Assembly (NCBI GenBank): GCA_017860345.1
Contig: JAFNAV010000004.1
Coordinates: 1 to 64,000, forward strand
DNA: 64,000 nucleotides
Source of the DNA: Bacteroidota bacterium
GTDB taxonomy: Bacteria; Bacteroidota; Bacteroidia; Bacteroidales; Paludibacteraceae
Reading direction: 5' to 3'
Part shown: piece after piece, positions 319 to 34,256 of the stretch
Position numbering within the stretch: the first letter of the stretch is position 1
How the letters are laid out: each line of letters begins with the position of its first letter
Notes under the pieces: generated by a model
Told to the model about the DNA's origin: nothing
The model's input: the letters and a program-made list of their open reading frames with translations, nothing else
Database searches by the model: none
Translations under genes and position numbers: made by a program

Positions 319-2508
319 TTATTCAGCTAACGGATCAAAAGTACCGTTTTGATTTCCTTTTTGAGTATCAGCCCAACCGATAGTCTGTAATAAAGAGGTA
401 TTGTTGCTTTGAGCGCCACTTGTTAAACCAATAAAATAATATTGTGGTTTATAGTCTATCACTTTACCAACTTCATCACCTCTGTTCTGCTTACGCATCA
501 GATAAGTGGTATAGAAAGTTACCAGATTATCCATGGTAGTATTGCCTGTAGTTTTCAAATCCAAAGGTAATGGGCGAACGGTTTTCAGCGGATCCGATGC
601 ATGCGATCCACTGGCATTAGTCTTGGCACAGATTTCAAAATTATCCCTGCGCTTGCCATTAAGAGGCTCTACACCCAGATATGTACAGGTATTGCCACCA
701 AAACCACTCAAAGTCCATGTGCTTGGCGCGTTTGCAATCTGACTGAAATTAGCTCCGCCATCCCATAACAACCAGCGGCGCATATCATCAAAACGCTTAC
801 CTTCGTACGCCAGTTCCACCTGACGTTCATACAAGATAGCAGCAAACATTTCGGAACGGGTTGATAAATCGCCCAGGCCGTATGAGCCATCGCTACCGGC
901 AGGAATACCAGCACGCTGACGTATAGCAATCAAAGCGTCTTTGGCCTCGGTAAGGCGGTTATATCCGCATGCAGCTTCAGCAAAGTTAAGCAACACTTCT
1001 GCGTAACGAATTTCCATCCAGGGCAAAGCAGCCTCGCCAAATGCTCCCTGACGGTTTTCGGACGAAGTAGCCGGCCACCGGTACAAACAGGTAGGAGCAG
1101 GTGAAGTCATATCAAAATCGTTAGAGCGTTTGCGTACGTAAACCCCTCTGTAGTTTGTACCCAACAAATCGGCCCCGAAACCAATTTTAGTTTCATCATT
1201 TCTATTGGTTTCCGTATCATACCATGAATAATTCCACAACACATAGTTTTCGCCACTATATGGATAATCAGCATCCAGATTACCTATTACATTGCCTCCT
1301 GAATCATATTTAGGCCACATTTTAGGATTACCTTCAAATCTCCAGTACACACCAGGGAAAGCAAAAGTACGATAAAAACGCGGATCCCTGTTGGCAAAGA
1401 ACGTTAAAGGATTATACGCATATTCAGATTGTCCCGGTTTTTTTCCATCGGCCATAGGAAATAAATCCACCATCATAGCCGATGGGGTCATTCCGCTATT
1501 GGATGTTGTAGCGTTAGTGTTTTTAGGACGTATGGTTTGTTCCCAGTGGTTGTTTCTGTATATTTCGTGTGCCGCGTCATCGTCGTGTACTTTATTATAA
1601 AGCGTTACAAACACAGCTTCGGAGCTATTGAAATCTGAAAACATTTTTGACCATCCTGCAGCGTTTACACCGGGTGCGCTTTGGTACGCTAAATTGAAAC
1701 CTCCAGCATTTAAAGCTGTAATAGCAGCCTGATTAGCTTCGTAGGCAGCTTTCCAACGCGATTCATCATCGGCACGATTAAACAACGGGCTGGCGTAAAG
1801 CAAACGTGCACGTCCGGCTAATGCCAAAGCAGCTCCTTTTGTTACACGGCCAAAATCGCCGCTTTTATAAGGCAACATGGCAGCAGCAGTATCCAAATCG
1901 TTACAAATAAAATCAATACAAACCTTGGCAGTAGAGCGAGGCACAATTAAATCAGTAGCTTCGCTAACATCGGTTAGCTGCACCTTATCAACGATGGGTA
2001 CACCACCATAAGTTTTTACCAACAGGTAGTATTGCCATGCACGGAAGAAGTAAACCTGCCCAAGTAATTCACGTTTTTGCTCGTCGGCCAATGTACCTTT
2101 AGAGATACCCTCTATGGCGTCGTTACAGTTACGTATTTCGCCCCATGGACCACTACTTGTATTTTTACTTACATGAAACCAGTCATCCAGGTTACTTGAT
2201 GAGGTTATAACCACATCAGGATTCACAAAGTTGGACAGGCTACTGAACTCCTCAGTTGAACGTGATTGGATATCGCCTTTTCCCGAACTTGTACTTCTAT
2301 AGGATAACCCATTGTTTACATCGGGTAACAAGCGCAGGTAAATATCATCTACCCTCATCTTGGCGCCCGTATAATCATTGTAGATTTCGGGGGTTAATTT
2401 GCTGTAATCAGTCTTTTCTTTCAAAAAGTCATCACTACATCCCGTCCACAAGATAGCGTTTGCCAGTAAGGCAACGCTAAGAATTAACTTATTCTTTGTA
2501 TTTATCAT
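319..2508 (-). CDS. RagB/SusD family nutrient-uptake outer membrane lipoprotein
   Basis: 729 aa; lipobox-like LWTGCSDDFL; SusD-type motifs (QVYFFRAWQYYLLVKTYGGVPIV; YERQVELAYEGKRFDDMRRW); directly downstream of SusC. Confidence 0.95.
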   Translation of the reverse strand: MINTKNKLILSVALLANAILWTGCSDDFLKEKTDYSKLTPEIYNDYTGAKMRVDDIYLRLLPDVNNGLSYRSTSSGKGDIQSRSTEEFSSLSNFVNPDVVITSSSNLDDWFHVSKNTSSGPWGEIRNCNDAIEGISKGTLADEQKRELLGQVYFFRAWQYYLLVKTYGGVPIVDKVQLTDVSEATDLIVPRSTAKVCIDFICNDLDTAAAMLPYKSGDFGRVTKGAALALAGRARLLYASPLFNRADDESRWKAAYEANQAAITALNAGGFNLAYQSAPGVNAAGWSKMFSDFNSSEAVFVTLYNKVHDDDAAHEIYRNNHWEQTIRPKNTNATTSNSGMTPSAMMVDLFPMADGKKPGQSEYAYNPLTFFANRDPRFYRTFAFPGVYWRFEGNPKMWPKYDSGGNVIGNLDADYPYSGENYVLWNYSWYDTETNRNDETKIGFGADLLGTNYRGVYVRKRSNDFDMTSPAPTCLYRWPATSSENRQGAFGEAALPWMEIRYAEVLLNFAEAACGYNRLTEAKDALIAIRQRAGIPAGSDGSYGLGDLSTRSEMFAAILYERQVELAYEGKRFDDMRRWLLWDGGANFSQIANAPSTWTLSGFGGNTCTYLGVEPLNGKRRDNFEICAKTNASGSHASDPLKTVRPLPLDLKTTGNTTMDNLVTFYTTYLMRKQNRGDEVGKVIDYKPQYYFIGLTSGAQSNNTSLLQTIGWADTQKGNQNGTFDPLAE

Positions 2509-2520
2509 TGTTGTATGTCT

Positions 2521-5500
2521 TTAGAATGAAACATTTAAACCCAAGGTAATCTTACGTAAAGTTGGGTATTTACTGTAACTGGATAATGGACTCATGAATT
2601 TATCAGGATACGGATTGTAGAAATCCAGGATATTCTGTCCGGTGATATTGAGACGGCAGCTTTCGACACCCACTTTGGTTACCCATGCTTTAGGCAATGC
2701 GTAAGCTATTGTGATATTGCGCAAGGCAATAGTTGTATTGCTCACTTTCCAGAAAGTAGAACTCAGACCGTTATCGGCAAAGCGCAGGTTAGGATATTTA
2801 GCGTCTCTGTTCTGAGCAGCAACAACACGTCCCTGAGCATCCAGTACATCTTCGTACACAAACATATTACCAGCCCAGAACGAAGGTAAGTTGGTGTATT
2901 GCATCACATCATAACCAGAACCGGTAGAAATAACACTTTTAGTCTGAATAGCTTCAGTTGGCATCATGGTATAACTTCCCCAGCTTGCGCTAAACTGAGC
3001 GCTGAACGAAAGGCTCTTCCACTCGCCACCCATATTTACTGTAAAGCCGTATGGGTTACTCCTGTATTTCGAAATCTGAACACGGTCGTTTTTATCTATC
3101 TTATTGCCTTCCGGATCGTTAGGATCGTTAGGAGCATAATAAGAACCATCTGCTTTTTGAGATCCACGTACGTTATTATATATCAACATACCCGGATGTA
3201 CATCGGCTTGCGATTTTCCCAAATATGTAACCAGCTGATTATCGTCGAAGTATTCAGCAATTTCCTGATAAGAATGGAACATACCAATATACTGGTAACC
3301 CCAAAGACCGCGATCGTAACGTTGGTTTGGCATAATATCGTCCAATTCGCGCGATGCTGCATTTTTCCAGGGCGCTTTTAAGATTTTATTATCAGAGTAA
3401 CCGGTATTAAGCTTAACGTAGTATTTGAAATTCTTACCAATTTTGTCGCGCCATCCTAAAGAAATTTCGATACCGTAATTATCCGTTGCACCATAATTTG
3501 ATGGCGACGCAGCTGCACCTACCGTCGAAGGATATTCGGGCGCATTGTCTACAGTCATAAACACATCTCTGTTTTTGTCATAATAACCATCTAAGTTAAC
3601 AGACAAGCGGCTTTTCAGGAAATTCATATCCAAACCAAGGTTGCTTTTGTAGCTTTTGTCCCAGTGCGAATTGCGATTGGGTACAGCATTCGGTATCTGG
3701 AAGTGTGCTCCGGCACTAATACCGGGGTCGGAGCCAAAGATAGGACCCTTAACAACTTCAGAACCATAGGTTGGTAACCAAGCCCATGCAGCCACATTAT
3801 CGCGTCCGAGAATACCATACGAACCACGAACCTTAAGGAAGTCCATAAATGTTACATTTTCCTTAAACCATGATTCTTCCGAAGCAATCCATCCTAATGA
3901 CATGGAAGGAAATACTCCCCAGTAATTTTCAGGGGCAAATTTGGTAGAAGCATCAGAGCGAATAAGAAACTCGACAAGATAGCGATCAGCGTAAGCATAG
4001 TTTACACGGCCAACATAAGACAGCACTCCACTTTCCGAACGGTTAAAGGTTGTAGTCTGTTCACCTCCGGCACCATTGGATTGTTGATTGGTAAATGAAT
4101 AAGGCAATGTAACATTTCCCCATACATATTCGCTTTCACTTTCAGCTTTTTCGATGGTAAACAAACCGCTTACATCGTGCAAACCAAACTTACGTGCATA
4201 AGTAGCAATAAAGTTGATCTGATAGTTATCAGCACGGCTCATATTTCTTCTGAGGTAGCTACCATTATCAACGCTAATCGTAGTTAACCCGTCGTAATTC
4301 AAACTATGCTCATCAGTACTTGTATAAAGATGATAGCCACTACCACCACGCCCGGCATCACCATCGGCAAACCTGTATAGCGTATAACTTGAACCAAATT
4401 CGTTATCTTTTGTAGTGCTGATACTTTTAGAATAAGTAGCTTTCAGTTTAAGCCCTTTCAAAATCCGGTTCCATCCGAAATCATACTCTATCGAACCGTT
4501 AATTGTCATATTCGATGGCATATTCACTTTGGAGTTTCCAAGGTTTTCCACCATATTATAGTTGTACTCCTGACTGCTCTCAATTTTTCCGTTAGTAACA
4601 CCATACGCAGCAATGGGGTAACCATTCACATATTCAGGAATATAGCGTGGGCGGGTCAATAAGGTAATATAATCCTTTTCGTCGTTGGTTCCACCTACTC
4701 TAACGTTAGATTTGGTAGTTTTACCATAGTCGCCCGATACCTGCATAGATGCTTTTGTCCATTTATTAATTTTGGCATCAACACCGGCACGGTAGTTCCA
4801 GCGATTGTACCCGATGCGTCCGAGGTTACCATCTTGCGTAACATAAGATATACCTGCAAAATAAGTTGCATTTTCGCTACCTCCGCTCACATTGAGACTG
4901 TGTTTTTGCGTCAGTGCCGAGCTCCAGTATTTGTCCAGCAAATCATAATTCATTCCTTTCATGGCTTCCAGTTCGTCAGCCTGAAACAAATGTCTTTGAG
5001 AATCTAAAGATGTATCCGATGGATCGGCTGCACGCACAGCATTCCATATTTGTCCAAAATTATAAGAATCCAGCATTTTTGAGCGGTAATACTCATCGGT
5101 ATAACCGAATTGTCCGCTATACGAAATTTTAGGTTTTCCTACCTGTCCACGTTTGGTTTTCACCAGAATAACCCCCTGTGCCGACCGGGCACCATAAATA
5201 GCTGCTGCCGCATCTTTCAAAACAGAGATGTTTTCGATCATGCTGGCATCGAGGTTATTAAACGCATTTTCATCGGCAATATAATCATCGATAACATACA
5301 ACGGAACCAACAATCCTGCAGTAGGCGAATTTGGCACATTGTCGCTATTACGAATGATAATTTTTGCCTGCGCACCCGGGCGGTTACCCGATTCGCTCAC
5401 TGCTACACCATTCATCATACCACCCAATGCAGACGCCAAGCTGGTAACCGAAAGGTCGGAGATTTCGTTAGGAGCTACCGTAGAAATCGAACCTGTAAGA

Positions 5501-5856
5501 TGCGCTTTTTTCTGTGAACCGTAACCAACTACAACTACTTCGTCGAGTTTCATCACATCACCTTTAAGTATTACGCGCGAGGCATCTGATACGGCTAATG
5601 TCTGGCTGATATATCCTATATACGAAATAGTCAGTTTACCGTTGGCTGGCGCCGTTAGCGAAAACTTTCCATCAATATCCGTAATTGTTCCCGTGGTAGT
5701 TCCTTCCACTTTAATGGTAGCCCCTATGATAGGCTGTTCATCTTCGCCCACCACAACTCCGGTGATGGTACGTGTCTGGGCATAAAGCTGCGTAGAACAT
5801 ACAAATGCCAGCAACAAACCCAAAAACAGGCTGAGAATTATATTTTTCTTCTCCAT
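2521..5856 (-). CDS. SusC/RagA family TonB-linked outer membrane protein
   Basis: 1111 aa; carboxypeptidase-like N-terminal domain (ITGVVVGEDEQPIIGATIKVEGTTTGTITDIDGKFSL), VVVGYGSQKK plug motif, C-terminal beta-barrel. Confidence 0.96.
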   Translation of the reverse strand: MEKKNIILSLFLGLLLAFVCSTQLYAQTRTITGVVVGEDEQPIIGATIKVEGTTTGTITDIDGKFSLTAPANGKLTISYIGYISQTLAVSDASRVILKGDVMKLDEVVVVGYGSQKKAHLTGSISTVAPNEISDLSVTSLASALGGMMNGVAVSESGNRPGAQAKIIIRNSDNVPNSPTAGLLVPLYVIDDYIADENAFNNLDASMIENISVLKDAAAAIYGARSAQGVILVKTKRGQVGKPKISYSGQFGYTDEYYRSKMLDSYNFGQIWNAVRAADPSDTSLDSQRHLFQADELEAMKGMNYDLLDKYWSSALTQKHSLNVSGGSENATYFAGISYVTQDGNLGRIGYNRWNYRAGVDAKINKWTKASMQVSGDYGKTTKSNVRVGGTNDEKDYITLLTRPRYIPEYVNGYPIAAYGVTNGKIESSQEYNYNMVENLGNSKVNMPSNMTINGSIEYDFGWNRILKGLKLKATYSKSISTTKDNEFGSSYTLYRFADGDAGRGGSGYHLYTSTDEHSLNYDGLTTISVDNGSYLRRNMSRADNYQINFIATYARKFGLHDVSGLFTIEKAESESEYVWGNVTLPYSFTNQQSNGAGGEQTTTFNRSESGVLSYVGRVNYAYADRYLVEFLIRSDASTKFAPENYWGVFPSMSLGWIASEESWFKENVTFMDFLKVRGSYGILGRDNVAAWAWLPTYGSEVVKGPIFGSDPGISAGAHFQIPNAVPNRNSHWDKSYKSNLGLDMNFLKSRLSVNLDGYYDKNRDVFMTVDNAPEYPSTVGAAASPSNYGATDNYGIEISLGWRDKIGKNFKYYVKLNTGYSDNKILKAPWKNAASRELDDIMPNQRYDRGLWGYQYIGMFHSYQEIAEYFDDNQLVTYLGKSQADVHPGMLIYNNVRGSQKADGSYYAPNDPNDPEGNKIDKNDRVQISKYRSNPYGFTVNMGGEWKSLSFSAQFSASWGSYTMMPTEAIQTKSVISTGSGYDVMQYTNLPSFWAGNMFVYEDVLDAQGRVVAAQNRDAKYPNLRFADNGLSSTFWKVSNTTIALRNITIAYALPKAWVTKVGVESCRLNITGQNILDFYNPYPDKFMSPLSSYSKYPTLRKITLGLNVSF

Positions 5857-5885: not shown

Positions 5886-7397
5886 TTAATGCCATATAGT
5901 GGAACCTGGTAACCAACGGGGATCTCCGGTACCTCTGCTAATCTGATCGGGACCCGCCATTGTAAATACTCCATTGCCCTGATATGTTAATTGCGGATTT
6001 GTGAGTATATAATCACCGCTGGTATCGGCGCTTGTACCGGATATTTCACCTTGTGGAACAGCTCCGTTGTACCAGAATGTATTACCACCGCCTGTAAAGG
6101 TTGCTGTAGTATTTCCGCGACGGAATCGTTTAATAAATCCATTTCCTCCAGCAGCAGAAGCATACTCGCCCGAATCAATGATAATATTGTTGCGAATAAT
6201 TATCTTATCGTTTACAGTACCCATAGCCCCGTTTGAATTGAACGACTGAGCACCTTTTGGGAATTGCCAGAATGTACAATTGGTAATGGTAATACTACCG
6301 CCTGTCCAGGATTCGCTTACAGGTTTCACACTGGATACGTTTCCGCTCGAAATCTGACAAATACGATTGCTGCTGTTGGGAACAATCTCGTTGTAGAAAG
6401 TACTGTTGATAAACGACATATCCTTAACCATACCAGACTGGAATCGCAGCGTGGCCTGATTGAAAGTACTTGAATTTTGTCCAATAATACAATCCTTGAT
6501 CATAAGGCTACCAATAGCATATTTCTTTCCATTATCATAGAAGAGGTAATACTTCAATCCGGTAATTTTACAGGATTGTATGGCAACAGGCTTGGTAGTT
6601 GGCACTACAAGATAGCTGGTTCCGTTAGATGAAGCAGCCGCAGCTGTAGCATCGAAATTGGCATCCATAAGGATTAGCGAATTTGTAGCAGCACCTACAA
6701 AATCAGCATAATCAATATCTATAAACTTCAACTTAAGACCTGCTCCACCGTTTACGAAAGACCCATCTGTCATTTTCAGTTTTGCATGTTCCAGTTTGCT
6801 TCCGCGGAAAGTTACCGAAGTCTGACCGATTGACACATTACCACTCATCGTGTAACTGCCTCCCGGTTCCAGTTCGTAACACAATTCGGTAGCACTTACA
6901 GGAACAGGATTTGTAGTAAAATACTCTGTCAGGTTTGTTCCGGAAGGAATAACAGCTGTAACCGACAATAAATTATCGTATTCCTTTGCTGTGGCAGTGG
7001 CTGCGTCTTTATTGTTATAACGTTCGTTGCCCAATGTTTTAATTACTACCTTGTAACGGGAGTCTTCTTTTGCTTCCCGTTTTACGGAAATTCCGTCTAC
7101 TACCTGGTTTTCTTCACCTATCAATACAGGACTATCAGGATTATCAATATTGTAAACAGACACCTGATATCCTCCTGCTCCTTTGACAAGTGGCCATTCA
7201 ATGGTTTGTTCGGAGTTATCTGCATTGAATTTCACCTTTATTTCGTCAGCTACCGGTGAATTCATCGTTGCATTTGTAACACTTGGCGACCACATACTGT
7301 CATCTTTAAAGCCGTCAATACACGATGTGACGGTTAAAACAATCATTGCACATATTATATATGCAATAATTTTGGGCTTGGCTTTCATTTTGTTCAT
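5886..7397 (-). CDS. DUF4957/DUF5123-like secreted lipoprotein with right-handed beta-helix character
   Basis: 503 aa; lipobox VTSC; Fn3-like N-terminus, then repeated beta-helix-like segments; directly upstream of SusC/D. Confidence 0.7.
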   Translation of the reverse strand: MNKMKAKPKIIAYIICAMIVLTVTSCIDGFKDDSMWSPSVTNATMNSPVADEIKVKFNADNSEQTIEWPLVKGAGGYQVSVYNIDNPDSPVLIGEENQVVDGISVKREAKEDSRYKVVIKTLGNERYNNKDAATATAKEYDNLLSVTAVIPSGTNLTEYFTTNPVPVSATELCYELEPGGSYTMSGNVSIGQTSVTFRGSKLEHAKLKMTDGSFVNGGAGLKLKFIDIDYADFVGAATNSLILMDANFDATAAAASSNGTSYLVVPTTKPVAIQSCKITGLKYYLFYDNGKKYAIGSLMIKDCIIGQNSSTFNQATLRFQSGMVKDMSFINSTFYNEIVPNSSNRICQISSGNVSSVKPVSESWTGGSITITNCTFWQFPKGAQSFNSNGAMGTVNDKIIIRNNIIIDSGEYASAAGGNGFIKRFRRGNTTATFTGGGNTFWYNGAVPQGEISGTSADTSGDYILTNPQLTYQGNGVFTMAGPDQISRGTGDPRWLPGSTIWH

Positions 7398-7763: not shown

Positions 7764-8669
7764 TTATCTGAAAACTTCCTTAAGATACTCCACATTATCT
7801 CCAAAATTCTTTTTCACGTTGCGGGCATCGTTGGCATCGCGCGAACGCTCTACCACAAGCCAGCCTTTCCAGCGCATTTTGGCTAAGGTTGCTCTTATCT
7901 TTTGCATATCCAACCGGGTATTGTTTCGCAAGGTAACGCCGTCGGTATCTGTACAGTGAATCATACAAATTCGTTTGGCACCCAGTATTTTCAGTTCTTT
8001 ATAAATATCTCTGCCAGCCACAAGCGGATTCTGAAAATTGAAGTAAATTTTAATTCCCCGGGAGTTTATCTCTTTCAGGAGTTTTACTTCTTCGGTAGCT
8101 GTAAGCGATGTTTCAATGCCTATAACTACTCCGGCTTCCAGCGCCATTTGTCCGGCCACTTTGAGGCGCTCAACCAGTTGCGGACGAATTTCCGGATTTT
8201 TGTTCAGATCGCACTGTACGCCCAGTGGCAAAAAAGCAACTTTGGCATCCATTATTTTCATGGTATTGATGCAGTCCTGCAACAGCTCGCGATAATTTGC
8301 TCTATCCACAAAAGACTGAGCATAAAACCCCGACATGGCTACTGAAGGAACCTCTATGCCGGTTTCGGTAGCTTTTTCAGTAAACAGCACTCTGAATTGG
8401 GGTATGCGTAATTTATTGTCAAACGAGTCGCGCTTACCAAGTCCGCCCATATCCATTTCAATACCATCGGCTCCTATTTGGCGGGCAAGCTCAAATGCTC
8501 CGATTTTCTGACGCTTCAGAATCATCCAGTCGCACACTGCCACTTTATATGAATCAACACCCTTTTTTTGGCCTTTAGCATTTAATGGAATTGCGCCTGC
8601 AAATAATCCAATAAAAATCAGCGCCAGAAAAATTGGCTTTATGAATGATTTTTTATAACTTTTATTCAA
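7764..8669 (-). CDS. sugar phosphate isomerase/epimerase (xylose isomerase-like TIM barrel), exported
   Basis: 301 aa; signal-like N-terminus; IGADGIEMDMGG...VIGIETSL...IHCTDTDG...GWLVVERS. Confidence 0.8.
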   Translation of the reverse strand: MNKSYKKSFIKPIFLALIFIGLFAGAIPLNAKGQKKGVDSYKVAVCDWMILKRQKIGAFELARQIGADGIEMDMGGLGKRDSFDNKLRIPQFRVLFTEKATETGIEVPSVAMSGFYAQSFVDRANYRELLQDCINTMKIMDAKVAFLPLGVQCDLNKNPEIRPQLVERLKVAGQMALEAGVVIGIETSLTATEEVKLLKEINSRGIKIYFNFQNPLVAGRDIYKELKILGAKRICMIHCTDTDGVTLRNNTRLDMQKIRATLAKMRWKGWLVVERSRDANDARNVKKNFGDNVEYLKEVFR

Positions 8670-8851: not shown

Positions 8852-9568
8852 TTACAAGTCATGAGACTCTGTTCGGGCAATTATTTTACGATAAATACAG
8901 GTGGCGTTATTGCAAATAGCACAACCGTAATCATGATGTTTCAGTTCCTGACCGATACCAATAACTCCACTCACCGATTTCCGGGGAATCATCAGACATG
9001 AATCGGTAAGCGAAATGCCTGTGGTATTCTCTCCAATCAGGTCAAAAAGAGTTTTCTGATCGCTGAGAGGCCAGTTGCAATAACCGGGACTATACCGGTT
9101 AGATATTTTCAGGCCATTTTTACCGACCTGTGTTTTCAATGCTCCCTGAATTTTGTCCATGGCTTTTTCTACCGTAAGCGACCCGATAGCATCCATAATA
9201 TATGCCTCCATAATATCGCCCTGCTCATTGAGCCGATTGGCCATTTGGGTAAAACCCTCGCCTGCCGTACACAGAAAAAAGGCGGCCTGGTTTGCTTCTT
9301 TGATATATCCACAAACCTGCCTGCCTAAATTCAATGTCATATTATCCACCTGTAAAAGTCCGGTTTTGGGGTCAGGAAAATTAATGTCTTTGAGCACATA
9401 GCCGCCCCTGATAGCAGTATCAAAATTCAATTCATTTAAAGTATCCCTGACGAAAGTCACGGCCGGATGTTCTTCTTCCAAATCGGATGATTGGAGAAAA
9501 TCCAGCACTTCGTCGATTGTGGGAGCCACTTCGCCGAACGAAAAGCTATATGCGCAAAAGTCATTCAT
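8852..9568 (-). CDS. stand-alone MetH-type activation (AdoMet-binding) domain protein, putative corrinoid reactivator
   Basis: 238 aa; RYSPGYCNWPLSDQ resembles the MetH activation-domain RxxPGYxxCP motif; MIPRKSVSGVIGIG; C-terminal CAICNNATCIYRK Cys cluster; overlaps the MtaA-like ORF by 8 bp. Confidence 0.8.
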   Translation of the reverse strand: MNDFCAYSFSFGEVAPTIDEVLDFLQSSDLEEEHPAVTFVRDTLNELNFDTAIRGGYVLKDINFPDPKTGLLQVDNMTLNLGRQVCGYIKEANQAAFFLCTAGEGFTQMANRLNEQGDIMEAYIMDAIGSLTVEKAMDKIQGALKTQVGKNGLKISNRYSPGYCNWPLSDQKTLFDLIGENTTGISLTDSCLMIPRKSVSGVIGIGQELKHHDYGCAICNNATCIYRKIIARTESHDL

Positions 9569-10544
9569 TCACAGCTTGTAAAAATGCTTTAATATTAGCT
9601 TCGGGCACGTACGGGGGTAAGTCGCAACCACTCGAAATTACGAAATTGCGATATCCTGCAGTATCTTCAAGCAACTTTTCCACCGCTATCTTAACCGAAT
9701 CCGGCGTTCCCTGCTTAAAAATCCCAACCGGATCCAGATTGCCCAAAACCATTACATCTGCAGGGCATTCTTCCAAAACGTCTTTCATATCAATGGCATT
9801 ACCGAAATGCAACGCTCTAGCTCCACTTAGCACCATAGCCTGAGTGCATTGCCCCGTATTTCCGCAATTGTGTAATATTACAGTAAAACTATCATCCTGC
9901 ACAGCATCCACTATTTCTTTTACAAAAATGGTGGAAAACGCCAGACAGTCGTCGTACGACAGTAAGCCGGCAGCCGGCTCAGCCATGATAACACCTGCCG
10001 TGCCGGTTGCCTTCAACGCTTTACAGTAATTAATCAGAAAACGGGTGCATTTTTGCAATAGTTCGAGTATTACTTCCGGCTCAATGTAAATGCCTACCAT
10101 AATCTCGGACATATCGTACAACCGACCAGCCAGCGAGAACGGACCTATACAACCCGAAAACACCGGTTTGTGTTTGATGTTTTCGGCAGCCAGCTTATTG
10201 GCCAGCAGGTACTGCGGGATACGCCCCATATCCAGAGAGGGAACCATCAACGCTTCCACCGACTCAGCACCGTCAACCAGACGCCCCGTTACAGTTGGTA
10301 TTTCATTATCAGGCAAATTGACTTCAGCTCCAAAAGCCTCTGCCTCTACGGTTAAATCCATAATAGACGAACAAGCCACCGTATCATAATGATCGGCCAG
10401 ATACTGAATGGCTTCATAATGGATCTGCCCATTGGTGACAGCCTCGTGTACGGTATAACCCAGTGCTTCAATGCCAGGATGCGTCATCACCGGGAAAGCC
10501 TGAACTTTAGCATTTAGAAAGATATTATCTATAAATTTTTTCAT
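9561..10544 (-). CDS. uroporphyrinogen decarboxylase-family methyltransferase (MtaA/CmuA-like)
   Basis: 327 aa; HNCGNT...SSGCDLPPYVP matches the HxCG...C zinc-ligand pattern of MtaA/MtbA-type methyltransferases. Confidence 0.85.
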   Translation of the reverse strand: MKKFIDNIFLNAKVQAFPVMTHPGIEALGYTVHEAVTNGQIHYEAIQYLADHYDTVACSSIMDLTVEAEAFGAEVNLPDNEIPTVTGRLVDGAESVEALMVPSLDMGRIPQYLLANKLAAENIKHKPVFSGCIGPFSLAGRLYDMSEIMVGIYIEPEVILELLQKCTRFLINYCKALKATGTAGVIMAEPAAGLLSYDDCLAFSTIFVKEIVDAVQDDSFTVILHNCGNTGQCTQAMVLSGARALHFGNAIDMKDVLEECPADVMVLGNLDPVGIFKQGTPDSVKIAVEKLLEDTAGYRNFVISSGCDLPPYVPEANIKAFLQAVNE

Positions 10545-10550
10545 CTATTT

Positions 10551-10660
10551 AAAAGCCCCTCCAAGCTCCCCAAAAGGGAGGCTTTCCGACCAGATGAGGG
10601 GATGTCGGATTTATTAATTATTCCCTTATGAAAGTAAACTTACTCATGGGTGTTTCAAGT
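10551..10660 (-). repeat. dispersed intergenic repeat, copy A
   Basis: aligns over about 110 bp with 29128-29238 with one indel, about 84% identity by hand. Confidence 0.88.
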
Positions 10661-10662
10661 TT

Positions 10663-11334
10663 TTATGCCGATATTTTATCTAACCAAACAATTCCTTCCT
10701 GCGGATTTTTTCCATATCCATCAGCGCCTATCTGAGAAGCAAAATCAGAAGACAACGGTGCACCTCCAACAATAATCTTTGTATCTGGTGAAATGGCCTT
10801 AATGGCATCGATAACCGGCTTCATATTAACCATGGTGGTGGTAAGCAAAGCCGATATGCCAACTACCGCACCCGGATTCTGTTGAACTGTTTCTACAAAT
10901 TTCTCTATCTTCACATCTATTCCCAAATCTATCACTTCCCAGCCAGCACCTTCTACCATCATACCAAACAGGTTTTTGCCTATATCATGCAAATCGCCAA
11001 ACACAGTACCAATGATAAACTTGCCCTTTCGCTGCACAGCTCCCGAAGCAAAAAACGGCTTCAAATGTGCCATGGAAGCACTCATAGCTTTGGCCGATAG
11101 CAACATCTGCGGAACAAAAATTTTATTCTCGGTATATTTCTGCCCAACTTTATTCATAGCTGTAATCAATGCATTATTTAGAATGTCCGATGGGGCAATA
11201 CCTGCCTCTAATGCTTCTTTAGTTATTTCGTCGGCGCCTGATTGCCCTTTCATTTGTGGTGGATAGGGCGATGCCTGATTAATTTTTCCGAACTCTACGC
11301 ATTCGGATAGTTTTTCTAATAATTCTAAGCTCAT
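10663..11334 (-). CDS. corrinoid (B12-binding) protein, MtaC/MtbC-like
   Basis: 223 aa; DLHDIGKNLFGMMVEGAGWEVIDLG contains the DxHxxG cobalamin-binding motif; downstream VGGAPLSSDFA; helical cap domain at N-terminus. Confidence 0.92.
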   Translation of the reverse strand: MSLELLEKLSECVEFGKINQASPYPPQMKGQSGADEITKEALEAGIAPSDILNNALITAMNKVGQKYTENKIFVPQMLLSAKAMSASMAHLKPFFASGAVQRKGKFIIGTVFGDLHDIGKNLFGMMVEGAGWEVIDLGIDVKIEKFVETVQQNPGAVVGISALLTTTMVNMKPVIDAIKAISPDTKIIVGGAPLSSDFASQIGADGYGKNPQEGIVWLDKISA

Positions 11335-11344
11335 AATATGTTGA

Positions 11345-11375
11345 ATTTGCCCTGCGGGCGTTACTTTGTTATTTC
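11345..11375 (-). repeat. mini-hairpin unit in inverse orientation (minus strand: AACGCCCGCAGGGCAAATTC)
   Basis: GCCC-GCA-GGGC stem-loop flanked by AAC/AAAT as in the arrays at 13075 and 16561. Confidence 0.55.
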
Positions 11376-11429
11376 TTTAATATCCTTTTTTACTTTTATA
11401 TGAAGCAATAATGATAGCTAAACCGTATT

Positions 11430-12986
11430 TCAATTAAAAAAAACATATAACCCTATCATAATCAACATCAATACAATCCAGGCAATTTTTACCGATTTAT
11501 CAATCTTGATAGGCCGATAATCGAGGGTGGAAACCGACACATTTTTAGTATCGAGCAATGTATAAATACAAGTGAATACAGCTAAAATCAGAAAGATAAT
11601 AAAGGACACATACAGGAAATGTATTCCACTAAATATCAAATTATTATAATATAATATTCCTATACCGATACTAAACACCGTTCCGAATGATAAAACCAGA
11701 TTGACAGCATTTTTCGACGTTTTTTTCCAAAGTACGGCAAATAAAAATGCTACCGACATGGGCGGAGCAATAAAGCCAAGTACCGATTGAAAAATATTAA
11801 AAAAACTCAATCCCTGAATAGCTGTGATACCGATAGCCAGAAAAACCGAAACTACAGCCCCACCAAGCACAATCCAGCGCCCTATGGCTTTTATTTGTTT
11901 ATTATCTGCATTGGGTTTATAATGTTTCACGTAAATATCCATGGTAAAAACAGTGCTCAGCGAATTCAGTGCCGAACCCACTGTACTAATCAGTGCAGCC
12001 AGCATTACCACTATAACAAGTCCGATAAGCCCCGGAGGAAATACGGCTTCGACTAATTTAAGATAAGCATCGGTAGAATTGCCAATATTGGGAATAATAA
12101 TAAATGCAAGAATACCCGGAAGTATAAACAATGGAATATCAATCAGCTTAAGCCAGGCAACGAAATTTGCCCCCATTTGTCCGTTCCTGAGATTTTTGGT
12201 ACCCAGTACCGATTGCACCATAGATTGGTCGGTACACCAAAACCAAACTCCCATAATAGGATACCCAAGCAAGATAGCCAACCAGGGGAAATCTTTATTG
12301 TCGAGTGGCTGAAAAAGTTTCCAGTACGACGCCGGAGTTGCCTCAATAATATGCCCTACTCCTCCTGCTTTATGAATTGCCATCACCACCAGCAATACCG
12401 AAACACCTATAAGCAAAAGCATCTGAAAAACATTGGTATAAGCTATGGCTTTCAGTCCACCGGCCATGGTAAATGCTGCCGAAAGAAATACCAGAATAAC
12501 AATACATAACCACAAAGGTAAAGCCAGAATCTGAGCCATAAACACGCCACCAGAGAACAGAGTGAGTCCCAGCCACGAGATTAAAATGGTAATGATGGTA
12601 TACCAGGCTATGTACTTTTGTGTAATGTTGCCAAAACGCTTACCCATATATTCGGGCAGAGTCATTACCTGTGCACCTAAGTAGCGCGGTGCAAACACAA
12701 AGGCCAGCAGTAAAATAAACGGGAAAGCATACCACGAGAAGTTGCCGGCTACGATACCGCTTTCGTACCCGCTGCTGGCATTGGCAATGAGCATAGACGG
12801 GCCTACATTGGTTCCCCACATAGTAAGTCCGATGGCAAACCATCCCAAACTTTTATTGGCAAGAAAAAGATTGTCGCTTTTGTTTTTAGCGCTAAAACTG
12901 GCCCAATATGCAATGCCAAGCAACACTACTACATAAGTTGCTATAACAACAATATCAATGGTAGATAATTGAATTAATTCTTTCAT
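11430..12986 (-). CDS. sodium:solute symporter (SSS family)
   Basis: 518 aa, many TM segments; SLGWFAIGLTMWGTNVGPSMLIANASSGYESG; VVMLAALISTVGSALNSLSTVFTMDIY. Confidence 0.93.
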   Translation of the reverse strand: MKELIQLSTIDIVVIATYVVVLLGIAYWASFSAKNKSDNLFLANKSLGWFAIGLTMWGTNVGPSMLIANASSGYESGIVAGNFSWYAFPFILLLAFVFAPRYLGAQVMTLPEYMGKRFGNITQKYIAWYTIITILISWLGLTLFSGGVFMAQILALPLWLCIVILVFLSAAFTMAGGLKAIAYTNVFQMLLLIGVSVLLVVMAIHKAGGVGHIIEATPASYWKLFQPLDNKDFPWLAILLGYPIMGVWFWCTDQSMVQSVLGTKNLRNGQMGANFVAWLKLIDIPLFILPGILAFIIIPNIGNSTDAYLKLVEAVFPPGLIGLVIVVMLAALISTVGSALNSLSTVFTMDIYVKHYKPNADNKQIKAIGRWIVLGGAVVSVFLAIGITAIQGLSFFNIFQSVLGFIAPPMSVAFLFAVLWKKTSKNAVNLVLSFGTVFSIGIGILYYNNLIFSGIHFLYVSFIIFLILAVFTCIYTLLDTKNVSVSTLDYRPIKIDKSVKIAWIVLMLIMIGLYVFFN

Positions 12987-13074
12987 ATGACCTCTACGTA
13001 ACCCTCTCCAAAAAAGAGGGAATGTGTATTAAATAAGATTATTAGTTTTGAAAAGTTTAATTTATTTACATCAA

Positions 13075-13146
13075 AATATCAGGCGAAGCCTAAATATCGC
13101 CGAAGGCAAATAACGGCGTAGCCAAATAACGCGCACAGCGCACATG
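13075..13146. repeat. tandem mini-hairpin array (period about 16 bp)
   Basis: AATATC-AGGCGAAGCCT, AATATC-GCCGAAGGC, AATAAC-GGCGTAGCC, AATAAC-GCGCACAGCGC; each core is a perfect inverted repeat. Confidence 0.85.
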
Positions 13147-14223
13147 TCATCTATATCTTTCCACAATTTTCAGTGCCTGTTCAATGTCTTTTTCCGATTT
13201 AAAATCGACATTAATGTGCATTCCCTGATTCCCCACATTATCCAAAAGCGGTTCTAATTCATCCAGTGTGACCCAGTTGGCCATTACAGATTTTCCGCCG
13301 GTTAATATGCGCTTATATAATTCGTACCACTGCGGGTTTCCTCCCTGCGGCTGCCCGTAACCGGGTGTCCATTGAATGGCATTCAGATTCTCGAGTTCCA
13401 GAATAGCATCCAAATGACGTATGGCATCCACTCCATCCAAATGATAAAGCGTGTAATCGATTTTTTCGGTCTGCTCCCGTAGAAATGGCAGACAGAAAGT
13501 GCGATAATCATCTTCGGATATCATGATCGATATATCCACCTGAAGTTTCGAAACAGTGCCCGGAGCCCAAAGCGAGAAATAGCAGAAAGCCATCTCACCA
13601 TTCACATTGATTATGTCGTAAATACGGTTGAAAACATCAAAATATGCTTCGTTGATTTTCCTCAATTGTTCCAGCGTTCCATCCGGATCCATAATCAAAT
13701 CCATCAGCACATTGTCCGAACCTTTCAGACTTGCCAATACATCGAGGCCTTCCACCAAATCGGGACAGCCCACCATGTATTTTCCCCGAGCATTGGCAAC
13801 GCAGTTTCGCAACAAATCTTCGTGCAGTTTCCAGCCTTTTTCATCAAAAATAATCTGTCCGTCGAAATCAGGCTTTTGATGAATCCAGATAGTGTCTTCG
13901 CGTCCTTCGAGTACTGAACCCAGAATAGCAGCCAGCGATCCGGGTCCTAACTGAGTATTGGCCACCGGCAAAATATCAGCCAGATAGGAATTCCGGCTCA
14001 TAGTATAATGCAGTTGCTGAGCACGCCAAATCGGGTCGAACCACAGCTGATTCAGATCTTTGTGAGGTGGTGGCGGCAAAATATTTTCGTAGGGAGCGCC
14101 CTCTTTAAACAGGTGTTCCCACATTGTCAGCACAATGCCTTTCCCATTCCACCAGTCGGTGTAATGTTTTTTGGTTTCGGAGAAATTTGATTTCCAGGTT
14201 TGCATAAGTATATATTTCAACAC
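13147..14223 (-). CDS. uroporphyrinogen decarboxylase-family protein lacking the HxCG zinc motif
   Basis: 358 aa; UROD-fold-like LYHLDGVDAIRHLDAILE...AIQWTPGYGQPQGG; start probably at 14205 (MQTWKSN). Confidence 0.75.
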   Translation of the reverse strand: MLKYILMQTWKSNFSETKKHYTDWWNGKGIVLTMWEHLFKEGAPYENILPPPPHKDLNQLWFDPIWRAQQLHYTMSRNSYLADILPVANTQLGPGSLAAILGSVLEGREDTIWIHQKPDFDGQIIFDEKGWKLHEDLLRNCVANARGKYMVGCPDLVEGLDVLASLKGSDNVLMDLIMDPDGTLEQLRKINEAYFDVFNRIYDIINVNGEMAFCYFSLWAPGTVSKLQVDISIMISEDDYRTFCLPFLREQTEKIDYTLYHLDGVDAIRHLDAILELENLNAIQWTPGYGQPQGGNPQWYELYKRILTGGKSVMANWVTLDELEPLLDNVGNQGMHINVDFKSEKDIEQALKIVERYR

Positions 14224-14281
14224 GAAGACACAAAGACACCAATATAAAACATTTCTTTGTGACTCCGGGTCTTTGTGTTTA
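14219..14281. repeat. 8-bp-period repeat forming an inverted pair
   Basis: ACACGAAG ACACAAAG ACACCAAT on plus; ACACAAAG ACCCGGAG TCACAAAG on minus; outer AACACGAAGA pairs with TCTTTGTGTT (one G-T). Confidence 0.65.
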
Positions 14282-16489
14282 AAAAAGTATTTTTAATGTC
14301 TTATTTAAATCCATTTCATCTGTACAATTCACATCTTCCAAATACATGGGTATTTCGGCTCCTTCTTTTACAAAAACCGGCATTTCATCCAGCGGAACAT
14401 CCACATTTCGGAGCCATCGTTCGCCTTCAAACACTTCTTTTGTAAAAAAATGCACCCACCTTCCTTCTGGTAAATAAATATCCCGCCGGTTTTCGCTGTT
14501 CATTACCGGAGCTACCAATATATCGTCGCCAAAATAATACTGATCGTCGATGTGGCGACAGGTTTTGTCTTGAGGGTGATGCAGAATCAACGCGCGCAAT
14601 ACCGGGAATCCTGTTTTGATGGCTTTCTCGCTTTGGTCCAATATATAGGGAATCAGCTGGTAACGCAATTTCAACCATTTACGAATAATCGGAGCAATAT
14701 TCGGATAATGCCAGGGCTCGCGCTTGTGTGAGCCATGATACCGCAGATGCGACGAGAACACGCCAAACTGTGTCCAGCGCACGTAAATATCGTCGGGCAA
14801 AACCGAATTCATAAAGTTGGGGACGCCATGAAAACCAGGCACATCGTGACTCCAGAAGGCAAAGCCCGAAAGCCCGAGTTGCAAGCCGCCTTTGAGCGAA
14901 CCAGCCAGTCCATCCCATGAGCAAGCCGAGTCGCCTCCCCAATGTAGCGGATAGCGCTGGCAACCAGCCCAACCGGCACGCGCCCAGATTATACCGTCGC
15001 CGGTTACTTCTTTGGTTACCTCGTAAGCCGCTTTTTGGTACAGAAGCGGATACAGATTGTGCAATTTTTCAGGCGACATATTCCTGTATTCGGCATCGAG
15101 ATGAATATCCTCGCCAAAGTCAGTTTTGATACACACAACACCCATTTCCAGCAAATTTCGCAATAATCCTTTGTACCACTCTGTCGCTTTATCGTATGTA
15201 AAATCAATGGTTCCGGCAAAGTCCTGTACGCTAAAATTGGACGAACCTGATATCAGGCGTTCGCTTTTGCTGATATATTCGTTTTCGTCGGCTTCTTTGT
15301 ACTGAATGGCATTGTACGAAATGTATGGCAATTGCCACAAACTCACACGAAAACCCTTTTCTTTCAGATTTTGAATAAACTGAGGAGGATTGGGGAATCT
15401 GTCGTCGTTGAATTTCCATTCGCAAAGCCAGTCGGTTTCGAACCAGCCTGTATCAAGATGAATCACATCGCACGGAAAGCCTTCCGTACGCATACGGTCG
15501 CAAATATCATTGACTTCATCAGCTGAAAAATAAGTCATCCGGCTCATCCACGTGCCAAAACTCCAGAGCGGAGGCATGGTGGGAAAACCCGTTAACTGAC
15601 GATAGCCGAACAGAATTTGTTCAGGATTATCTCCGCCAATCACGAAAAAATCAACCAACGGTTCTTCTACCAAGACCTGCGCCGAACGGGTGGAGTGGTC
15701 GGCCAGCGAAAATTTAGCAAAAGCAGTAGTGTGCACAAAAACGCCGTAATTTTCGGACGAAAGATAAAAGGGAATATTTTTGTATGTACGCCGATTATTT
15801 ACGCCCTGTCCGTCCTGATTACGAAGTTGAAAAGTTTTTCCCGATAAATCCATTTTAGCAAATCGCTCACCGGTGCCGTAAAAGCATTCGTCTGGTTTTG
15901 CCCGGAATGAAAATGTTGTACGATTCGCATCACCATTTCTCTCTACATAAGCCAGTGCAAAAGCATCATGACGGGTAGGTGAAAACATATCGTAAGCCGA
16001 AAGTGCCACCTCTTTTTTACCATCCGGAAAAAGGCTCAGAAAAAAAGTTTCATCAGGCGCAGGAATCAAGTCGCTCCACACATCGGTTTTAGCTTTCTGG
16101 AAGCCCAAAACAGCCCGTTTATTTCCCAATTTATCCGTAACAATCCATTCATCCGTTTTTTTCTCAAAACTTAATGCCTGTTTCTTTAGCCGACTATCCA
16201 GTTCAAGCATTTCCGAATTTTCCACGATTTCACCTGCGAAAGCTATCGATACACGCAGAATTTTTTCAGAGAGAGCCTGCACACGCAACGTAAATTCTTT
16301 ACGCGGGACAGATAAATCGGGAGTAATTTCGTTGGAATTATTTTGTTGTTGAAACGGAATGGTAACGAACACATCACCATTTATTTCCTGAATAGCAGTT
16401 GGCAGACAAGCCCGCCAAAGCCGATCGCCCTGATTCAACTCAGGACTAAAATCTAAAAAGTCAAAAAGCTGATAATTTGTTTGTTGCAT
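14279..16489 (-). CDS. glycoside hydrolase family 31 (alpha-xylosidase/alpha-glucosidase, YicI-like)
   Basis: 736 aa; PPLWSFGTWMSRMTYF, CIKTDFGEDI (GH31 nucleophile region), WARAGWAGCQRYPLHWGGDSACSW. Confidence 0.92.
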   Translation of the reverse strand: MQQTNYQLFDFLDFSPELNQGDRLWRACLPTAIQEINGDVFVTIPFQQQNNSNEITPDLSVPRKEFTLRVQALSEKILRVSIAFAGEIVENSEMLELDSRLKKQALSFEKKTDEWIVTDKLGNKRAVLGFQKAKTDVWSDLIPAPDETFFLSLFPDGKKEVALSAYDMFSPTRHDAFALAYVERNGDANRTTFSFRAKPDECFYGTGERFAKMDLSGKTFQLRNQDGQGVNNRRTYKNIPFYLSSENYGVFVHTTAFAKFSLADHSTRSAQVLVEEPLVDFFVIGGDNPEQILFGYRQLTGFPTMPPLWSFGTWMSRMTYFSADEVNDICDRMRTEGFPCDVIHLDTGWFETDWLCEWKFNDDRFPNPPQFIQNLKEKGFRVSLWQLPYISYNAIQYKEADENEYISKSERLISGSSNFSVQDFAGTIDFTYDKATEWYKGLLRNLLEMGVVCIKTDFGEDIHLDAEYRNMSPEKLHNLYPLLYQKAAYEVTKEVTGDGIIWARAGWAGCQRYPLHWGGDSACSWDGLAGSLKGGLQLGLSGFAFWSHDVPGFHGVPNFMNSVLPDDIYVRWTQFGVFSSHLRYHGSHKREPWHYPNIAPIIRKWLKLRYQLIPYILDQSEKAIKTGFPVLRALILHHPQDKTCRHIDDQYYFGDDILVAPVMNSENRRDIYLPEGRWVHFFTKEVFEGERWLRNVDVPLDEMPVFVKEGAEIPMYLEDVNCTDEMDLNKTLKILF

Positions 16490-16636: not shown

Positions 16637-17314
16637 TCAGTGTAAATCACTAAACACAACCCACGTTGTTCCCTTTGGTGCATCTTCAATACCTTCCTGA
16701 TATTTGCCCATTATTTTATTCCACTCATCCACCCTCGGATTGTTTTCGGTGGTTTTGGGGTTTAATTCATCCAATGTTTTACCCTTGGGAATACTGATAA
16801 CCAACATCAGTTGCCGACCATGACGAAAAACCAATAATTGCTGAAAATCGGCCTTAATAAAACCCCGGGAAACTTCCGGCCATTTTTCAAATTGCGTACG
16901 GTGATATTCCATATATTCGTTTTGCAATGTTGAATCTTCAACCAGATTGGCAGTCATGATGATATTCTTCCATTCCGAAGCAGGTTTTTCGCCCGTCATT
17001 TTCTGCCGGTTAAAGTTATAAAACGGAGCATCGTATAGTTTCAGATTAAGACTTGGATAGTCGTTTTCGAGCGCAATTTTCAACTTATTTATTTTATCAA
17101 GCGAAGAAAAAACAACCCAATGCTGTTCCCACATCTGCATTTCGTCAGACGGGATATTGTTTTTTTTACATTCGTCGAGAAGTATCTGAGTGGAAACACG
17201 ATATTCGGTATCAACAATTTCGAGGATAGCAACAGGATCGGCTTTGGGCGAGGTACAAGCCGACAAAGCAAGAAAAAATACAAGCGCAAAATATGCCATT
17301 GCTGAATATTTCAT
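16637..17314 (-). CDS. L-rhamnose mutarotase-family (RhaM-like) lipoprotein
   Basis: 225 aa; lipobox ALSACTS; C-terminal half EYMEYHRTQFEKWPEVSRGFIKADFQQLLVFRHGRQLMLVISI...WNKIMGKYQ is RhaM-like. Confidence 0.7.
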   Translation of the reverse strand: MKYSAMAYFALVFFLALSACTSPKADPVAILEIVDTEYRVSTQILLDECKKNNIPSDEMQMWEQHWVVFSSLDKINKLKIALENDYPSLNLKLYDAPFYNFNRQKMTGEKPASEWKNIIMTANLVEDSTLQNEYMEYHRTQFEKWPEVSRGFIKADFQQLLVFRHGRQLMLVISIPKGKTLDELNPKTTENNPRVDEWNKIMGKYQEGIEDAPKGTTWVVFSDLH

Positions 17315-33242: not shown

Positions 33243-34256
33243 ATGGAACTATCTGAGCAAAGATTTATTGCAGAAATCAAGTTAAAAGTTCGTACAGCGC
33301 AGTACGAAGCCCTGAAAGTTGTAAATACGCAACTTATAAATTTATACTGGGAAATAGGCAAATCCATTTCCGAAAAACAGAGCGAAAGCTGGGGTCAGGC
33401 TGTAGTACCAACTCTATCCAAGGAACTGCAAAAGGAGTTTCCCGGTATTGGAGGATTTTCCACCACCAATCTTTGGCTGATGGCACAGTTTTACAGTGAG
33501 TACCACACAGTTGAATTTCTCCATCCATTGGTTGGAGAAATTAGCTGGACAAAACACGTTGTCATTTTAAATAAATGCAAGAATAATCAGGAGCGACAAT
33601 TTTATATTCTGGCAACAAAAAAATTTGGATGGACAAAAAATGTGCTTATTCATCAGATTGAGAGCAATGCTTTTGTCAGACAAATGAGCAGTCAGACAAA
33701 TTTTGAAAATACGCTCACTGAAAAAATAAAAGAGCAGGCTTTTTTAGCGGTTAAAGACGAATACACATTCGACTTTCTGGGGCTGACCGATGAACACACC
33801 GAGAGTGATTTAGAGCAATCGCTGATTTTAAACATTAGAAATTTCCTGCTTGAATTAGGTACCGATTTTTCGTTTGTAGGAAATCAGTATAAAATATGCG
33901 TGGCCGATAAAGAATATTTCATCGACCTGTTGTTATACCATCGTCAGCTACAAAGTCTTATTGCCGTAGAGCTAAAAATAGGCGAATTTATGCCTGAATA
34001 TAAAGGCAAAATGGAATTTTACCTGTCGGTGCTGAACGACACCGTAAAACTGCCTCATGAAAATGAAGCTATTGGAATTATTATTTGCAAAAACAAAAAC
34101 AGAACTATCGTAGAATATTCGCTAAAAACGAGTAATATGCCCATTGGGGTTGCAACGTATAGCACTTCGGCCAATCTACCGGCAAAATACAAAAGTTTAT
34201 TGCCAAGTTCAGCTGAAATATCAGATAAAATAAATTACTATTTTAATTTAAAATAA
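33243..34256 (+). CDS. DUF1016/YhcG-like PDDEXK nuclease family protein
   Basis: 337 aa; VNTQLINLYWEIGKSISEKQ...FSTTNLWLMAQFYSEY...FIDLLLYHRQLQSLIAVELKIGEFMPEYKGKMEFYLSVL. Confidence 0.9.
   Translation: MELSEQRFIAEIKLKVRTAQYEALKVVNTQLINLYWEIGKSISEKQSESWGQAVVPTLSKELQKEFPGIGGFSTTNLWLMAQFYSEYHTVEFLHPLVGEISWTKHVVILNKCKNNQERQFYILATKKFGWTKNVLIHQIESNAFVRQMSSQTNFENTLTEKIKEQAFLAVKDEYTFDFLGLTDEHTESDLEQSLILNIRNFLLELGTDFSFVGNQYKICVADKEYFIDLLLYHRQLQSLIAVELKIGEFMPEYKGKMEFYLSVLNDTVKLPHENEAIGIIICKNKNRTIVEYSLKTSNMPIGVATYSTSANLPAKYKSLLPSSAEISDKINYYFNLK

Follow-up and report, generated by a model that had tools for sequence, protein, structure and literature searches.

Plant cell walls contain methyl-etherified sugars as conserved components, and a known bacterial route for sugar demethylation is a P450-type, oxygen-requiring one. 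The UROD-type aryl-ether O-demethylases of acetogens (OdmB and VdmB) and their methoxydotrophic relatives combine a donor enzyme of the uroporphyrinogen decarboxylase (UROD) fold with a separate corrinoid protein, an acceptor methyltransferase and a reactivation protein. Here we analysed a 64,000-nucleotide stretch of DNA (hereafter the window) from a Bacteroidota bacterium of the Paludibacteraceae (GenBank assembly GCA_017860345.1, contig JAFNAV010000004.1), in which five genes encode a comparable set: a UROD-fold protein (UROD2), an SSS sodium:solute symporter, a corrinoid protein, an MtaA-like zinc methyltransferase and a stand-alone MetH-type activation domain. Taken overall, this module is probably best explained as a corrinoid-dependent sugar O-demethylation system whose methyl group ends up in methionine. 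Anaerobic Bacteroidales of the gut and of sediments appear to possess such an enzyme set. The module differs from the OdmB/VdmB systems in its sugar context, in having a thiol-type acceptor enzyme for the folate methyltransferase and a MetH-type domain for the ATP-dependent RACE protein, and in that UROD2 has no detectable sequence similarity to PF01208.

Type 1 mlp clusters (Kountz and Balskus, PMC10418091) likewise contain MtaA-like His-Cys-Cys proteins and a corrinoid protein and lack a folate methyltransferase. They require at least two Mlps (>25% identity to a characterised SCMT) together with a RACE protein and have been linked to methyl-sulfur and methyl-selenium compounds, whereas the window locus has one MtaA-like protein, no RACE protein and, instead, the divergent UROD2, the MetH activation domain, the symporter and glycosidases. 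Corrinoid-fed, folate-free methionine synthases are also known: the MesA-MesC core enzymes (PMC7857596), UROD/MetE-related zinc proteins, are thought to move a corrinoid-bound methyl group to homocysteine. The MtaA-like protein, in contrast, matches MtaA/CmuA models, not MetE, and its methyl source would be a sugar ether rather than the corrinoid proteins of the Wood-Ljungdahl pathway or methanogenesis. With MetH, the module shares homocysteine methyltransferase, corrinoid and activation domains; UROD2 replaces the methyl-folate module in ten fusion proteins described below, whereas the modules of the window are separate genes and its MtaA-like protein would fill the homocysteine role. The MtaABC methanol:coenzyme M system resembles the module in its MtaA-like and corrinoid proteins, and MtaB itself occurs in two related clusters; the window, however, has no MtaB and presents a glycosidase context. 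To our knowledge, coenzyme M is not expected in Bacteroidota.

In the open-licence literature searched, we found related systems and no description of corrinoid-dependent sugar demethylation or of the anaerobic removal of a sugar ether methyl group. The module appears to be a variant of the corrinoid methyltransferase systems, possibly one described earlier elsewhere.

The UROD2 protein and its corrinoid partners

UROD2 (358 aa; the conserved ATG at 14205, rather than the GTG at 14223, is its likely start) gave no match in sequence searches of Pfam, NCBIfam and PDB, so that a fold comparison was needed. Its AlphaFold2 model, built with 35 homologues (pLDDT 93.7, pTM 0.91), matched best MtaA of Methanosarcina mazei (4ay7; E 4e-8, TM ~0.6) and then uroporphyrinogen decarboxylases. 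These matches of the predicted structure indicate that UROD2 is a distant UROD-fold protein. An earlier note on this DNA had called it a second UROD-family protein, which is borne out by the fold of the model and not by family membership at the level of sequence; profile-profile comparisons of UROD2 with the MtaA-like proteins and with UROD3, another URO-D protein of related loci, gave weak results, the underlying alignments being shallow. The invariant HxDG of UROD2 sits where the MtaA fold has HxCG (with a one-residue offset in the alignment), and UROD2 has no HxC site; UROD3 has H-S-C-G plus a His at the position of the second Cys. Carboxylates replacing cysteines have been reported in UROD-type O-methyltransferases (PMC10418091).

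The remaining components agreed with what the earlier note had read from the DNA. The five consecutive minus-strand open reading frames were confirmed at 8852-14223, with intergenic gaps of ~70-160 bp and an 8-bp overlap between the MtaA-like and activation-domain genes. The MtaA-like protein belongs to PF01208 and carries the predicted HxCG...C zinc site as H225-N-C227-G...C307, whose H/C/C residues are invariant in 13 relatives. Its closest NCBIfam models are MtaA/MtbA/CmuA (NF004889/TIGR01463 best), with scores below the family cut-offs (110.7 bits against 400 for MtaA; 115.5 against 235.4 for mtaA_cmuA). The corrinoid protein combines a PF02607 cap with a PF02310 domain, contains the DxHxxG motif as GDLHDIG, and is closest to the MtgC/pyl_corrinoid models of NCBIfam. 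The symporter matched PF00474, and TIGR00813 above its cut-off. The activation-domain protein matched PF02965 (E 8e-11) and contains RYSPGY, conserved as SPGY in its relatives; these stand-alone domains share with the window protein a C-terminal CxxCxxxxC and one further Cys, which we speculate may form an iron-sulfur or zinc site, unexpected for MetH. In most of the fetched loci, its gene accompanies the MtaA-like gene. Reactivation would seem to proceed through this MetH-type domain, not through a RACE/RamA protein.

A species scan with one genome per species yielded 31 loci with UROD2 relatives of 52-90% identity (individual loci are cited below by L numbers). In its fullest form, the gene order was RhaM-like, GH31, UROD2, SSS, (UROD3, RhaM, RhaT), corrinoid protein, MtaA-like protein and MetH activation domain. 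The symporter gene is conserved beside UROD2, and in about 23 of the 31 loci the gene immediately upstream of UROD2 is that for GH31, with several others ending at contig edges. The GH31 gene thus belongs to the conserved unit and extends the five-gene set upstream, where it is preceded by a conserved RhaM-domain gene. The conservation of this order across Bacteroidales shows that the adjacency is not due to chance. The description of the module in the earlier note as complete and self-contained applies to the Paludibacter and Dysgonomonas loci; in other genomes, some of its parts are joined by fusion or encoded at separate sites. Between the symporter and corrinoid genes, L020:12853-15347 and nine other loci carry a UROD3-RhaM-RhaT insert (a second URO-D protein, a rhamnose mutarotase and a rhamnose transporter), a set that is absent from the window genome. 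The insert is likely a second substrate branch on the same core, for a methylated 6-deoxyhexose such as 2-O-methyl-fucose.

Gene fusions link UROD2 directly to methyl transfer. Ten genomes (L041, L042, L044, L049, L050, L081-L085) encode proteins of ~940-1010 residues in which an N-terminal UROD2 is followed by a homocysteine S-methyltransferase and corrinoid cap/B12-binding domains. Pfam scans assigned PF02574 in five of these proteins, and in L081-L085 the domain was recognised from its BLAST match to a homocysteine S-methyltransferase domain; no pterin-binding domain was present in the five scanned by Pfam. In their domain composition, these fusions are MetH with UROD2 in place of the methyl-tetrahydrofolate module. 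Six more genomes (L073, L076-L080) have UROD2 fused straight to the corrinoid protein, and L032 has a free-standing PF02574 protein between the symporter and corrinoid genes in a genome with no MtaA-like match. PF02574 is therefore fused or adjacent in 11 genomes, whereas the module of the window has only the MtaA-like protein for this role. The fold match to MtaA and these fusions suggest that UROD2 very probably serves as a substrate:corrinoid methyltransferase, methylating the corrinoid protein, and make homocysteine the best-supported acceptor. When the UROD2-corrinoid fusion was searched against plasmids, no record matched the greater part of its length; the top matches covered the corrinoid part only.

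Association of the module with glycosidase genes

We then compared two further genome sets, 301 Bacteroidaceae-level genomes and 149 genomes around that of the window. Of the 301, 14 had UROD2, and precisely these genomes also encoded a close homologue of the window GH31 (Fisher p 2e-24, such values being inflated by shared ancestry). Among the 149 relatives, which behaved alike, 15 had UROD2 and 14 the GH31, the odd one having UROD2 at a contig end. GH141 (PF21231) was present in 14/14 Bacteroidaceae-level genomes with UROD2 and in 18/287 others; strong GH141 matches occurred in 13/15 and 5/134 of the relatives with and without UROD2, respectively, and GH141 matched in 27 of 30 UROD2 genomes of the species scan. 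The GH141 gene lies directly upstream of GH31 in 10 of the 13 fetched Bacteroidaceae-level loci, and follows the MetH activation gene in L031 and L032.

These glycosidases point to rhamnogalacturonan II (RG-II). The B. thetaiotaomicron RG-II degradome (PMC10154630, PMC12282258) includes the GH141 BT_1002, and a GH141 related to it adjoins GH31-UROD2 in related loci; that of L076 has BT_1002 as its best solved match (5mqp, 582 bits). BT1002 frees 2-O-methyl-D-xylose-alpha-1,3-L-fucose from RG-II side chain A (PMC10154630), and the known enzymes of this organism cut all RG-II linkages but one (PMC12282258). In the degradome literature, we found neither a corrinoid enzyme nor an account of what becomes of the methyl groups. 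The linkage left uncut is the xylose-fucose bond. With an alpha-xylosidase-like GH31 and, beside it, a proposed methyl-ether demethylase, the route would be a coherent one. The window GH31, which has no obvious signal peptide, matches PDB 5f7c (1169 bits), which we take to be BT_0339. In published tables, BT_0338 is a GH141 (PMC8264420) and BT_0339 an alpha-xylosidase (PMC10434189), the same pairing as in the loci studied here, which suggests that B. thetaiotaomicron carries this system. We predict that the genes beside BT_0339 encode a UROD2-corrinoid protein and an SSS symporter.

Of the 301 genomes, 25 encode the MtaA-like protein, among them every one of the 14 UROD2 genomes. In 7 of the remaining 11 (L114-L120; G266, G475, G228, G248, G297, G456, G381), its gene is directly beside that of a GH67 alpha-glucuronidase; these loci usually also encode a further UROD-fold protein and, in many cases, a corrinoid protein close by. 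GH67 enzymes release (4-O-methyl-)glucuronate from glucuronoxylan, and these loci are likely a 4-O-methyl-glucuronate demethylation module; we counted them as independent support for a methylated-sugar substrate. In the last four genomes, the MtaA-like gene has other neighbours. In L110 these encode a GH29 fucosidase, a GH95-like protein, RhaT and a UROD, and in another genome it lies within a mannan-type locus (GH3, GH26, GH130, MFS) together with a UROD, a corrinoid protein and a MetH activation domain (L113:1668-12862). The GH95-like gene of L110 was tried as a GH139 2-O-methyl-fucosidase, and its PDB matches were weak and of the GH95 type. RACo-type ATP-dependent reactivases lie beside SSS, corrinoid and MtaA-like genes at L111:2938-4479 and L112:9623-11221, so that both types of reactivation occur with this core. 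These neighbourhoods suggest that one core serves several pathways for methylated sugars.

Proposed pathway and alternatives

The earlier note had proposed a methyl-transfer system that works through a corrinoid protein and brings its own importer, and for which a methylated sugar could be the substrate, and the fusions, the GH31 co-occurrence and the adjacency of GH141 and GH67 uphold this. In the pathway that we propose, GH141 would release 2-O-methyl-D-xylose-alpha-1,3-L-fucose from RG-II, the SSS symporter would import the disaccharide (a step somewhat more probable than otherwise), and GH31 would hydrolyse it in the cytoplasm. UROD2 would then demethylate 2-O-methyl-xylose to xylose, with cob(I)alamin on the corrinoid protein taking up the ether methyl group, and the MtaA-like zinc enzyme would pass the methyl group from the corrinoid to homocysteine, yielding methionine. 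The MetH-type domain, with S-adenosylmethionine, would rescue cob(II)alamin formed by accidental oxidation. That the substrate is an O-methyl sugar of some kind is highly likely; that it is 2-O-methyl-xylose specifically is likely, at a lower level of confidence. We consider it slightly more likely than the latter that the methyl group goes to homocysteine, in place of the coenzyme M or tetrahydrofolate that methanogens and acetogens use.

Several observations weigh against this pathway. The putative third metal ligand of UROD2 falls at a variable position close to the end of the last strand, where most sequences have Asp and some have His or Asn. The GH31 scored 503 bits against NF007940 (the PRK10658 alpha-xylosidase equivalog), below the cut-off of 606, so that it may be called alpha-xylosidase-like only, with a presumed specificity. 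Two of the 15 UROD2 genomes among the relatives have no strong GH141, and the window genome has its GH141 on another contig (C82). An ordinary MetH with its own activation domain is also encoded in the window genome, in pieces on other contigs; the module is thus a dedicated second system beside it. The biochemical roles of all module proteins are predictions from their genes. Finally, the MtaA-like gene is kept in seven of the ten genomes that already have a fused homocysteine methyltransferase, and missing in three, which makes the acceptor of the MtaA-like protein less certain; a simple replacement of the MtaA-like protein by the homocysteine methyltransferase is only partly true.

This persistence would be expected if the same module, acting on the same class of substrate, used its MtaA-like protein to deliver the methyl group to tetrahydrofolate or to a thiol other than homocysteine, for one-carbon metabolism or methyl disposal, and a serine hydroxymethyltransferase gene adjoining the MtaA-like gene in L096 hints at one-carbon metabolism. 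The His-Cys-Cys zinc site, however, is typical of thiol methyltransferases (PMC10418091), homocysteine methyltransferase stands in for the MtaA-like protein in L032 and in the three fusion genomes without it, and the MtaA-like protein pairs with a MetH-type activation domain. Another acceptor is therefore unlikely, and transfer to homocysteine is preferred. A different O-methyl donor, such as 2-O-methyl-fucose, methyl-galacturonate or methanol from pectin, is more doubtful still. While RG-II contains other methylated sugars too (PMC8218411) and a methanol methyltransferase, MtaB, is inserted in the L032 cluster, the distribution of the alpha-xylosidase-type GH31 mirrors that of UROD2 one to one, GH141 releases a xylose-fucose disaccharide and, where methanol is handled, a separate MtaB stands beside UROD2. 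These points favour 2-O-methyl-xylose as the methyl donor. A selenium or sulfur demethylation cluster with no sugar link, which the His-Cys-Cys MtaA-like and corrinoid proteins recall by their likeness to type 1 mlp clusters (PMC10418091), is very improbable given the lack of a RACE protein, of sulfur or selenium genes and of an HxC site in UROD2, and the invariant association with GH31/GH141/GH67 and sugar transporters. Merely incidental adjacency of unrelated genes, which the separation of the corrinoid, MtaA-like and activation genes from UROD2 in some genomes might suggest, is scarcely credible in view of the fusions, the order kept across families and the perfect co-occurrence with GH31.

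Neighbouring genes and wider occurrence

The window is part of a 3.27-Mb genome bin (G000 contig C71), whose nearest named relatives in the species scan are mostly Paludibacter sp. of the Bacteroidales. The GH31, RhaM-like and sugar isomerase genes that the earlier note had placed around the module were recovered (Table 1). The adjacent SusD/SusC/DUF4992 genes are taken as context of the module, and a set related to them also lies upstream in L020. Nothing in the window reached an Rfam threshold, so no B12 riboswitch was identified. An unrelated YhcG-type PDDEXK nuclease with a DUF1016_N domain is encoded at 33243-34256.

Table 1. Features of the module and its surroundings in the window
Feature	Position	Strand	Evidence or context
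SusD	319-2508	-	Pfam; outer-membrane glycan uptake
SusC	2521-5856	-	Pfam; outer-membrane glycan uptake
DUF4992/DUF4957/DUF5123 protein	5886-7397	-	Pfam; outer-membrane glycan uptake, with SusC/SusD
Xylose-isomerase-like TIM barrel, probable accessory, outside core	7764-8669	-	PF01261
Stand-alone MetH-type activation domain, proposed SAM-dependent reactivase	8852-9568	-	PF02965
MtaA-like zinc methyltransferase, proposed methyl-corrinoid:homocysteine methyltransferase	9561-10544	-	PF01208, HxC...C
Corrinoid (B12-binding) protein, methyl carrier	10663-11334	-	PF02607+PF02310, DxHxxG
SSS sodium:solute symporter, proposed importer of methylated (di)saccharide	11430-12986	-	PF00474, TIGR00813
UROD2, UROD-fold protein, proposed methyl-sugar:corrinoid methyltransferase (O-demethylase)	13147-14223	-	Fold model, fusions
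GH31 alpha-glycosidase, YicI/alpha-xylosidase-like	14279-16489	-	PF01055 family
RhaM-domain protein, lipoprotein-like N-terminus	16637-17314	-	PF05336 E 6e-10; synteny

Related genes turned up in other settings. A 1534-aa protein (L031:2137-6741) joins a GH78 rhamnosidase, BNR_2 and a xylose-isomerase-like barrel related to that of the window. In one Paludibacter genome (L021:1123-3444), two more divergent URO-D paralogues and an MFS transporter are encoded upstream of GH31. A UROD2 relative with 57% identity (L045:10001-11053), which has a distant GH31 (27%) and genes for ABC-type transport beside it, is on a contig labelled Anaerolineae and reflects either transfer outside Bacteroidota or a binning error. 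The MtaB genes at L032:6250-7626 (PF12176) and L108:4683 (80% identical to it) lie in Bacteroidales clusters that also encode a corrinoid protein and a methyltransferase of the homocysteine or MtaA-like type, a possible methanol-to-methionine route.

With about even chances, the module represents a general pathway of anaerobic Bacteroidota, in which a shared corrinoid/MtaA-like/MetH-activation core would be served by interchangeable UROD-fold donor enzymes, one for each O-methylated plant sugar: 2-O-methyl-xylose with GH141 and GH31, 4-O-methyl-glucuronate with GH67, and a methylated 6-deoxyhexose with RhaT/RhaM. Sugar methyl ethers would thereby be converted to methionine without folate, in some cases by a MetH-like enzyme with a sugar demethylase in place of its folate module. 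For RG-II degradation, the module proposes the next enzymes to act on the GH141 product. If the pathway is correct, dietary and rumen polysaccharides would give methyl groups to bacterial methionine via vitamin B12, and glycan use would be tied to the competition for B12 in the gut.

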